This document shows, one piece after another, positions 156-2,982 of a stretch of 64,000 nucleotides of DNA; positions within the stretch are counted from its first letter, which is position 1; each line of letters opens with the position of its first letter. Both the position numbers and the translations under genes were made by a program. The stretch spans positions 1,426,001 to 1,490,000 of the forward strand of contig NZ_CP064873.1 of NCBI RefSeq assembly GCF_019056515.1. Direction: 5' to 3'. This stretch comes from Microbacterium paraoxydans (GTDB lineage Bacteria; Actinomycetota; Actinomycetes; Actinomycetales; Microbacteriaceae). A model generated the notes under the pieces. It searched no databases. It was not told where the DNA came from and was given only the letters and a program-made list of their open reading frames with translations.

Positions 156-249
156 ACAGCTATGGAAACAAAGTGAACGGCTCGAAATGAGACCCGTCCG
201 CGACTAGTGGTCTGCCCTGTCTGGGCAGACCGACCCAGACAGGAGAATT
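156..249 (+). promoter_or_regulatory. infB leader with chained micro-ORFs and alternative hairpins
   Basis: Leader between ylxR and infB. Seen directly: three micro-ORFs in three frames, each overlapping the next by 4 nt: METK (162-176), MNGSK from GTG (173-190) and MRPVRD (187-207). Two nucleotides later comes a perfect 9-bp hairpin (209-217 with 223-231). An alternative perfect 10-bp hairpin pairs 216-225 with 234-243 and covers the start of the Shine-Dalgarno AGGAG (241-245). The two hairpins share bases and cannot coexist. I infer a translational switch on infB; no regulator is known to me. Confidence 0.6.
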
Positions 250-2982
250 GTGGCTGGTAAACCACGCGTACATGAGATCGCCGCCGAACTCGGCGTCGAC
301 AGCAAGGTCGCACTTGCGAAGCTCAAGGAACTCGGCGAGTTCGTGAAGAGCCCGTCCTCGACGGTCGAGCCCCCGGTGGCGCGCAAGCTGCGCGCCGCGA
401 TCGAGGCCGACCCGTCCCTGAATGCGGCCTCCGAGCCCGCTGCGGCGAAGCCCGCCGCGAAGCCGGCACCGAAGTCCTCGGCGCCCACCCCCGGTCCGAA
501 GCCCGGCCCCAAGCCGGGTCCTGCAGCTCCGGCCGCACCCGCCCCGAGCCCGGCGCCCGCCCCCGCGGCGGAGAAGGCTCCGGCGCCGTCGGCGCCCGCG
601 AAGCCGTCGGCTCCGGCCCCGGCCGCACCGTCCTCCGGTGACGGCAACGCCCCGAAGCCCGGCGCGCCCCGCCCCGGCAACAACCCGTTCTCGTCCGCAC
701 AGGGCATGGGCCAGCGTCCCGCGGGTCCCCGTCCCGGCAACAACCCCTTCGCCTCGGCGCAGGGGATGGGCCAGCGCCCGACCCCCGGCAACATCCCGCG
801 TCCGCAGGCGCCCCGTCCCGGTGCTCCGCGCCCGGGTGCCCCGCGTCCCGGCTCGCCGCGACCCGGCGCACCTCGTGGTGGTCAGGGCGGTCGTCCCGGT
901 GCTCCGTTCCAGCAGCGTACGGGCGGCCCCGGTCGTCCCGGCGGCGGTGGCGGTCCCGGTGCGGGTCCCCGTCCCGGCGGCGGTTTCGCCGGTCGTCCCG
1001 GTGGTGGCGGTCGTGGCCGTGGTCCCGGCGGCGGTACGGCCGGTGCCTTCGGCAAGGGCGGCGGCAAGAGCAAGCAGCGCAAGTCGCGGCGGGCGAAGCG
1101 GCAAGAGTTCGAGATGCGGAGCGCCCCGGTCGTCGGTGGCGTCAACGTCACCCGTGGCAACGGCGAGACGATCCGCATGCGTCGCGGTGCCTCCATCGCG
1201 GACTTCGCCGACAAGATCGAGGCCCTGACCGGCTACACCGTGCAGCCGGGCACCCTCGTCACGATCCTCTTCAACCTCGGCGAGATGGCCACGGCCACCG
1301 AGTCGCTGGATGAGGCCACGTTCGAGGTCCTCGGTGAGGAGCTGGGATACAAGGTCCAGATGGTCTCGCCCGAGGACGAGGACAAGGAGCTCCTCGAGGG
1401 CTTCGGTCTCGACCTCGAGAAGGAGCTGGAGGAGGAGAGCGAGGACGACCTCGAGATCCGTCCCCCGGTCGTCACCGTCATGGGTCACGTCGACCACGGT
1501 AAGACGCGCCTCCTCGACGCGATCCGCCAGACCAACGTCATCGAGGGTGAGGCCGGCGGCATCACCCAGCACATCGGTGCCTACCAGGTCTGGACCGAGC
1601 ACGAGGGCATCGAGCGGGCGATCACGTTCATCGACACCCCCGGTCACGAGGCGTTCACCGCCATGCGTGCCCGTGGTGCGCAGGTCACCGACCTCGCGAT
1701 CCTCGTGGTCGCGGCCGACGACGGCATCATGCCGCAGACGGTCGAGGCGCTGAACCACGCCCAGGCAGCCAACGTGCCGATCGTGGTCGCGGTGAACAAG
1801 GTCGACAAGCCCGAGGCCAACCCGGCCAAGGTGCGTCAGCAGCTCACCGAGTACGGTCTGGTGGCCGAGGAGTACGGCGGCGACGTCATGTTCGTCGACG
1901 TCTCGGCCCGTGCCAACACCGGCATCCAGGAGCTCCTGGACGCGGTGCTGCTCACGGCGGACGCCGGTCTCGACCTGACCGCCAACCCGAACAAGGCCGC
2001 TCGCGGTGTCGCCATCGAGGCGAAGCTCGACAAGGGCCGCGGTTCGGTCGCGACGGTGCTGATCCAGTCCGGAACCCTCCGGGTCGGCGACGCGATCGTG
2101 GCGGGCACCGCTTACGGCCGTGTCCGCGCGATGATCGACGAGAACGGCGAGATCGTCGAGGCGGCCGCGCCGTCCCGTCCGGTCCAGGTGCAGGGTCTGA
2201 ACTCCGTGCCCCGCGCCGGCGACGTCTTCATCGTCACCGAGGAAGACCGCATGGCGCGTCAGATCGCGGAGAAGCGCGAAGCCGTCGAGCGCAACGCGCA
2301 GCTGGCCAAGGCTCGCAAGCGCATCTCGCTCGAGGACTTCACCCGTGCTCTCGAAGAGGGCAAGGTCGAGTCGCTCAACCTCATCATCAAGGGTGACGTC
2401 TCCGGTGCCGTCGAGGCGCTGGAGGAGTCGCTCCTCAAGATCGAGGTCGACGACTCGGTGCAGCTGCGCATCATCCACCGCGGTGTCGGTGCGATCACCG
2501 AGTCCGACGTGAACCTGGCGACGATCGACAACGCGATCATCGTGGGCTTCAACGTCCGCCCCGACACGAAGGCGCGCGAGCGTGCTCAGCGTGAGGGCGT
2601 GGACATCCGTTTCTACTCCGTCATCTACAACGCGATCGACGAGATCGAGAGCTCGCTCAAGGGCATGCTCAAGCCGGAGTACGAAGAGGTCCAGTCGGGT
2701 GTCGCCGAGATCCGCGAGGTGTTCCGCTCCTCGAAGTTCGGCAACATCGCCGGTGTCATCGTGCGGTCCGGGACGATCACGCGCAACGCGAAGGCCCGCG
2801 TCATCCGCGACGGCGTCGTCATCGCCGATGGCCTCGCCATCGAGTCGCTGCGCCGGTTCAAGGACGACGTCACCGAGGTGCGGACGGACTACGAGGCCGG
2901 TATCGGCCTCGGCAAGTACAACGACATCCAGGTCGGCGACGAGATCGAGACGACCGAGATGGTGGAGAAGCCGCGCGGCTGA
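250..2982 (+). CDS. infB: translation initiation factor IF-2
   Basis: GTPase that delivers initiator fMet-tRNA to the 30S subunit and promotes subunit joining. The 910-residue protein has the long actinobacterial layout: an N-terminal IF2_N domain (about residues 2-50, [13 protein letters not shown]), a Pro/Ala/Gly/Arg-rich linker (about 55-275) with a near-duplicate [15 protein letters not shown] block, a second IF2_N-like stretch, then the G domain with G1 GHVDHGKT (412-419), DTPGHEAF and NKVD, followed by domains II to IV. The start is GTG 250 behind AGGAG at 241-245, which fits the conserved [11 protein letters not shown] beginning. It is followed by a strong hairpin and then rbfA. Confidence 0.98.

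Follow-up and report, generated by a model that had tools for sequence, protein, structure and literature searches.

A chain of overlapping micro-ORFs in the infB leaders of Actinomycetes and its possible role in gating translation of initiation factor IF2

What lies in the short gap between ylxR and infB, the gene for translation initiation factor IF2, and could it influence how much IF2 is made? To our knowledge, little is known about how IF2 levels are set outside Escherichia coli. An initial annotation of the window (the whole 64-kb stretch of DNA analysed) described three linked micro-ORFs here, encoding METK, MNGSK and MRPVRD in three frames with GTGA and ATGA overlaps. These were followed by hairpins of 9 and 10 bp that share bases, the second burying the AGG of the infB Shine-Dalgarno sequence (SD). 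Direct reading bore out every one of these elements (Table 1). The ylxR stop codon is 6 nt upstream of the first micro-ORF start and shares its frame, the foot of stem 1 is one base (208) past the last micro-ORF stop, and stems 1 and 2 have bases 216–217 and 223–225 in common. On both strands of the window, a chain of at least three linked micro-ORFs occurs in this leader alone. Within positions 1–400 we found no intrinsic terminator (hairpin plus U run) and no sigma-70 type promoter before infB, the only promoter type searched. In Mycobacterium abscessus, a WhiB7 binding peak reported upstream of infB may hint at a promoter there (PMC10727445).

Table 1. Features of the ylxR–infB junction, in window coordinates.
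Feature	Position	Strand	Details
ylxR 3' end (YlxR/DUF448)	1–155 (frame 3–155; stop TGA 153–155)	+	PF04296, E 2.5e-10 on 3–152
Micro-ORF 1, METK-stop	162–176	+	ATG GAA ACA AAG TGA; ylxR frame; read directly; conserved in relatives
Micro-ORF 2, (f)MNGSK-stop	173–190	+	GTG AAC GGC TCG AAA TGA; GTG start; GTGA overlap (173–176) with micro-ORF 1
Micro-ORF 3, MRPVRD-stop	187–207 (stop TAG 205–207)	+	ATG AGA CCC GTC CGC GAC TAG; ATGA overlap (187–190) with micro-ORF 2
Small hairpin	177–197	+	ACGG-CUC (GAAAU) GAG-(AC)-CCGU; micro-ORF 3 start codon at loop edge; pairing in relatives
Stem 1	209–231	+	209–217 pairs with 223–231, 9 perfect pairs; 5' arm +4 to +12 from first base of last stop
Stem 2 (anti-SD)	216–243	+	216–225 pairs with 234–243, 10 perfect pairs; includes AGG 241–243
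infB SD	241–245	+	AGGAG; read from sequence
infB, translation initiation factor IF2	250–2982	+	910 aa; GTG start; PF04760, PF00009, PF11987

To see how widely this arrangement is shared, we searched for infB starts in overlapping samples of 99 genus genomes (from which 30 loci were taken), 60 family, 79 order, 98 class and 119 phylum genomes, plus 80 further loci. Ten of the first 296 loci lacked a detectable IF2 N-terminus and were taken as contig ends, and merging identical 150-nt leaders reduced the remaining 286 to 275, the window's own among them. We compared a Microbacteriaceae set, in which five loci (L032, L065, L071, L096 and L108) have names that go no lower than class or phylum, with the rest of the order (Micrococcales) and the rest of the class (Actinomycetes). 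Dinucleotide shuffles served as controls for the chain counts, and the shuffle statistics ignore shared ancestry. Another genus genome holds, apart from infB, a 361-residue open frame with four IF2 N-terminal-like repeats (G052:C1:3716083-3716991).

A chain, defined as at least three ORFs of 2–9 codons with overlapping stops and starts in the 150-nt leader, was present in 257 of the 275 distinct class leaders vs. 24 of 5,500 shuffles. By group, it occurred in 147/150 leaders of the Microbacteriaceae set (shuffles 15/3,000), 52/67 from the rest of the order (3/1,340) and 58/58 from the rest of the class (6/1,160). The initial annotation had cautioned that such short ORFs might arise by chance; these counts refute that origin and confirm that the chain is real. 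Outside the class, none of 41 leaders had a chain of three or more, and one of the 41 had a two-ORF chain. Of 52 other family codes, three (f13, f34 and f40) yielded no leader, and 46 of the remaining 49 families had at least one chain-bearing leader. Counted by leader, 126 of 142 from these families carried the chain, rising to 138 when ORFs of up to 30 codons were allowed and 200 nt were read; L359, with a misplaced infB start, is kept among the 142, and L365 has no infB start. A sequence-only model built from A1, an alignment of 45 diverse members in which the infB SD columns are invariant or nearly so, detected, with an E cutoff of 1, the infB leader of 19 among 20 genomes. Its matches elsewhere were weak and partial (best 0.08), infB being the sole strong match among the candidates scored, which were 150 of at least 390 first-look candidates per genome.

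The exceptions took several forms. Family f6 has a longer last ORF and f7 a middle ORF of 10–12 codons, and f4 (L144, L165, L226, L234, L256) has a shorter chain in which an ORF of 10–11 codons terminates at the stem or near it, except for L256, from a 0.8 Mb genome, which has no chain at all. Judged by eye, the last stop still coincides with, or lies near, the foot of stem 1 in leaders with a longer last micro-ORF (L101, L106, L230, L238, L244, L365) and in those where the middle ORF is longer and the chain has one more rung (L229, L232, L235, L246, L249). Both leaders of family f29 (L348, L349) keep the chain with both hairpins absent by eye; their last stop is ~20 nt before infB with the SD in between, making them a natural hairpin-less variant. 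In L365 (G162), the leader joins a later part of infB directly and the IF2 N-terminal region is missing, possibly through assembly collapse.

Are these frames read as codons? We took the last ATGA lying 50–100 nt before infB, without regard to any stop, in 247 leaders (4 others had none). An in-frame stop followed at codon index 5–6 (Met = 0) in 225 of the 247, comprising 128/129 in the Microbacteriaceae set, 51/62 in the rest of the order and 46/56 in the rest of the class. The two other frames after the same ATGA were stop-free for 11 codons in 127, 58 and 48 leaders and in 106, 55 and 46 leaders of the same three groups (129, 62 and 56). The stop itself was TAA in 129 of the 225, TAG in 57 and TGA in 39, and the codons directly before it are among the most variable. 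The links likewise interchange between lineages (ATGA 407, GTGA 80, TAATG 57, TGATG 38 and TAGTG 6, summed over groups), and in every type the stop and start codons overlap or sit a few bases apart, as in coupled ORFs. The peptides also vary by lineage (MSTR/MSTQR/MSTPxx in some, MDN/MSGSK/MRPVxx in others). We therefore rejected class-wide conserved peptides, whose sequences differ between lineages, and found no conserved stalling or sensor codons in them; it is the starts and stops that do not vary. The chain is very probably translated, and the micro-ORFs seem to be retained because of where they start and stop rather than for their peptides.

Turning to the hairpins, we searched each leader for helices of at least 6 or at least 8 pairs, counting G-U pairs as half. 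A helix of at least 6 upstream of the SD was found in 113/129 leaders of the Microbacteriaceae set (36% of shuffles), 60/66 from the rest of the order (37%) and 44/56 from the rest of the class (31%). Helices covering the SD followed a different distribution, at 92/129 (15%), 37/66 (12%) and 1/56 (6%), and in the Microbacteriaceae set 59/129 reached at least 8 pairs (1.5% of shuffles). From these per-sequence counts, stem 1 is common across the class (217/251) and stem 2 is mainly an order-level feature. The case for stem 1 rests on this search because its variable register gave a poor column count in the 129-sequence alignment. Pairs of stems sharing bases, one of them burying the SD, occurred in the window, in 60/129 leaders of the Microbacteriaceae set and in 21/66 from elsewhere in the order. 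Arms that do not overlap were seen in a further 21/129 and 14/66; in these leaders an H-type pseudoknot may form, and in the window we rejected it, reckoning that a 4-nt linker across 9 pairs would not let the full stems coexist.

Stem 2 shows covariation. In A1, 8 of its 10 pairs changed on both sides (matched in 5/500 shuffles), in 32 cells (0/500), and its covariation score of 0.240 compared with 0.158 in shuffles, none of 500 reaching it, and with 0.159 or less when the helix was slid. However, two other measures were matched or exceeded by a slid version, and one pair was unpaired in 28 of 44 cells. In the wider alignment of 129, every stem 2 pair formed in at least 96 sequences. The small hairpin at 177–197 was paired in 92% of cells in the Microbacteriaceae set vs. 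31–50% when slid; its covariation is weak, with a score reached by 1/500 shuffles and two-sided changes in only 2 of 7 pairs, a figure matched by 142/500. Rfam 15 gave no match at the leader, with E cutoffs of 1 for the window and 0.1 for the loci of 20 relatives. A hammerhead-like core, CUGAUGAG...GAAA, is visible in many relatives and was rejected by eye and against Rfam, being absent in Microbacterium (GUGAACG) and in relatives with CUAAUGA or CUCAUGA.

Folding suggests that the two stems are close in energy. The minimum-energy structure of positions 150–265 contains stem 2 and the 177–197 hairpin (−41.9 kcal/mol, z −3.5, 0/200 shuffles), while a 60-nt fold of the window's last-stop region shows stem 1 in place of stem 2, which also leaves the closed ground state uncertain. 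Across relatives, minimum-energy folds of ~60 nt buried at least two SD bases in 127/128, 47/65 and 25/56 leaders of the three groups, not always through stem 2. The median cost of the SD-free state was correspondingly 3.7, 1.6 and 0.5 kcal/mol.

Where, then, would a ribosome on the last stop sit? Toeprints suggest a ribosome edge at about +12. A published footprint extends about 12 nt past the codon, i.e., to about +14 (PMC4833913). Relative to the opening base of the last stop, stem 1 has its 5' arm beginning at +3 to +7 in 213 of 246 leaders; the arm is complete by +15 in 229 of them, with +12 the commonest end point. These 246 are out of 251, five having no stop near the stem; choosing the stop near the stem introduces a mild bias, from which the stop-blind test above is free. 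Stem 1 is thus mostly found where such a ribosome is predicted to lie, in agreement with the initial suggestion that a ribosome ending on MRPVRD would melt it. We then computed SD accessibility with bases masked from the last stop to +9, +12 or +15. In the Microbacteriaceae set, the median predicted accessibility was 0.35 unmasked and 0.36, 0.79 and 0.89 with the three masks; the corresponding medians were 0.48 unmasked and 0.30, 0.39 and 0.66 masked for other members of the order, and 0.63 unmasked and 0.73, 0.70 and 0.74 masked for other members of the class. A 3-nt shift in the assumed edge therefore alters the prediction, including the predicted sign of the switch, and at the +9 edge no opening is predicted even in the Microbacteriaceae set, which counts against gating. 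Together with the near-equal stems, this dependence on the edge indicates a finely balanced switch whose sign is beyond computation.

The translation-coupled switch originally proposed fared well in part. Across relatives, the reading frames of the micro-ORFs are conserved, both stems exceed shuffles, stem 2 covaries, and close relatives were found to carry the micro-ORFs and both stems. Its two-state form may not be general, given the single SD-covering helix among 56 leaders outside the order and the hairpin-less leaders of family f29.

From these frames, overlaps, fixed last stop, stems and stem 2 covariation, all legible in the leaders themselves, we infer ribosome occupancy, gating, its direction and its dependence on IF2 as follows. 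The leader would form a ladder, usually of three ORFs of 3–6 codons in all three frames, joined by ATGA, GTGA, TAATG or TGATG overlaps. Ribosomes finishing ylxR, or loading before the first ATG, would step from stop to start down to one fixed last stop. A ribosome sitting there would cover stem 1's 5' arm, together with the start of the anti-SD arm in Microbacteriaceae. It would thereby decide which of the near-equal stems forms and whether the infB SD is exposed. For Microbacteriaceae, the likeliest outcome would be that a completed chain opens infB. Because each rung would be an initiation needing IF2 and fMet-tRNA, infB translation would follow the capacity for re-initiation. Sensing of IF2 by the leader is plausible since IF2 is reported to help re-initiation; its overexpression raised coupled expression with an initiator tRNA defective in IF2 binding, and IF3 overexpression reduced coupling (PMC12548453). 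As a whole statement, a termination-reinitiation ladder whose ribosome on the last stop gates infB is one we believe about as firmly as we doubt it. The distance from the last stop to infB, mostly 40–50 nt, is long for direct re-initiation.

A simpler account is that the chain only delivers. It would act as a frame-independent catcher that hands ylxR ribosomes on toward infB and, by maintaining translation across the gap, guards against Rho or decay, with no sensing. Because each successive ATGA ORF shifts frame, three of them would catch ribosomes arriving in any frame, and among the 201 of 275 leaders whose YlxR frame was located by a motif (74 unplaced, placements not individually checked), the ylxR stop overlaps a micro-ORF start in 100, in different frames. 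However, the remaining 101 leaders show no such junction between ylxR stop and chain; in 93 of them the stop falls upstream, separated from the first start by 5 to 107 nt. Delivery would require neither the spacing of stem 1 nor a covarying anti-SD stem. Still, the chain persists in the hairpin-less leaders of family f29 and stem 2 is nearly absent outside the order, so the chain may act by delivery alone. We consider delivery as the full explanation unlikely, though it has a real claim. That ylxR ends in several frames, often before the chain, also led us to reject the micro-ORFs as a YlxR C-terminus. Outside the Microbacteriaceae set, a purine-rich GGAAGCRGGTCGAGA-like element often precedes the first ATG (by inspection) and is a possible candidate SD for the first micro-ORF. 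In class leaders such as L281 and L168, it is apparently read by ylxR in different frames.

The switch could also run the other way, as negative feedback. A completed chain would then open stem 1, let stem 2 form and close infB, and a shortage of IF2 would make the chain fail, so that stem 1 persists and infB is made. This would suit the position of the stem 1 5' arm under the predicted footprint, the window's short fold, which favors stem 1 as the model requires, and the reported benefit of IF2 to re-initiation (PMC12548453). It would also suit many members of the order outside Microbacteriaceae, in which the anti-SD arm starts just beyond +12 (at +13 to +16 in 22 of the 36 with such an arm) and the +12 mask lowered accessibility by more than 0.2 in 19/64 leaders and raised it in 10/64. 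In the Microbacteriaceae set, however, the arm mostly starts at +10 to +12 (68 of the 90 that have one), and the same mask raised accessibility by more than 0.2 in 88/129 leaders and lowered it in 1/129. Moreover, an edge at +15 lifts the median in the rest of the order too, and feedback of this form would be impossible where stem 2 is absent. We judge it improbable, more so than delivery.

A further reading dispenses with translation altogether, treating a repeated GATGAG motif and the hairpins as an RNA element that serves as a binding site for a protein or for the 30S subunit. Nucleotide conservation is indeed high; in the Microbacteriaceae set, 70 of 82 distinct chains have MSGSK or MNGSK as micro-ORF 2, with nearly invariant nucleotides, some of which belong to the 177–197 hairpin. 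Third codon positions gave no consistent excess variation, in chains pre-selected by their stops, which also speaks against simple coding, and an element resembling GGAAGCRGGTC recurs in different ylxR frames (by inspection). Yet successive ATGA motifs are separated by 3n+2 nt in 273 of 289 cases (11, 14 or 17 nt in 272), and their stops interchange after variable codons, which makes this account very improbable. Chance has next to no credit with us; unlinked single micro-ORFs are common (127 and 129 on the window's two strands), but the class-wide counts, the 46 of 49 families, the stops at codon 5–6 and the window's sole chain of three or more all oppose it.

Returning to the re-initiation ladder, it can be pushed one step further. 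Three obligatory ultra-short rounds of initiation in series might act as a counter, their joint success depending steeply on free IF2 and fMet-tRNA and deciding infB opening. This would be an ancestral, class-wide autoregulatory circuit to which one order added the SD-hiding switch. We offer this extension tentatively and would sooner bet against it. Whatever its reach, the spread of the chain over most further families points to strong selection on how ribosomes move immediately ahead of infB. The chain predicts ribosome footprints, natural variants with and without each hairpin exist, and, if the ladder is true, re-initiation becomes testable in a natural setting.

How does this leader compare with known systems? 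In erm-type translational attenuation, a leader ORF precedes alternative hairpins that can bury the SD, and the leader ribosome chooses between them. The infB leader shares the alternative hairpins, one hiding the SD, but differs in lacking a conserved stalling peptide, its starts and stops being constant and its peptides variable. Other translation factors test their own step, infC (IF3) being controlled by an AUU start and prfB (RF2) by a frameshift. The likeness is that a factor's mRNA tests the step the factor serves; the difference is that the test proposed here would be repeated re-initiation, with a putative dependence on IF2. Searching titles and the beginnings of abstracts, we found no treatment of micro-ORFs before infB, in a literature whose subscription papers were mostly, and supplements wholly, out of reach. 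For E. coli infB, promoters, mRNA half-life and a cold-shock translational bias are described (PMC6511841), which resembles our proposal in placing control after transcription as well as at promoters; the abstract of that paper does not mention a micro-ORF chain. Another comparison is uORF-ppe2 of Mycobacterium tuberculosis, an AUGA-overlap uORF in an actinobacterium that reporters showed to be needed for translation of the next ORF (PMC11260477). As described there, however, it is one uORF that overlaps the gene itself under a riboswitch, whereas the infB chain ends well upstream, at a hairpin. A further parallel is termination-reinitiation in gene pairs, where ATGA or TGATG overlaps like those of the infB leader make the downstream frame dependent on the upstream one, by a 30S or 70S mechanism that is still debated (PMC6728339, PMC12548453). 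As these accounts present it, known coupling concerns gene pairs; by contrast, the infB leader has usually three ORFs of a few codons with unconserved peptides, before one gene, in most sampled families of a class. The chain has the look of a so far unrecognised route by which ribosome traffic could influence IF2 production.
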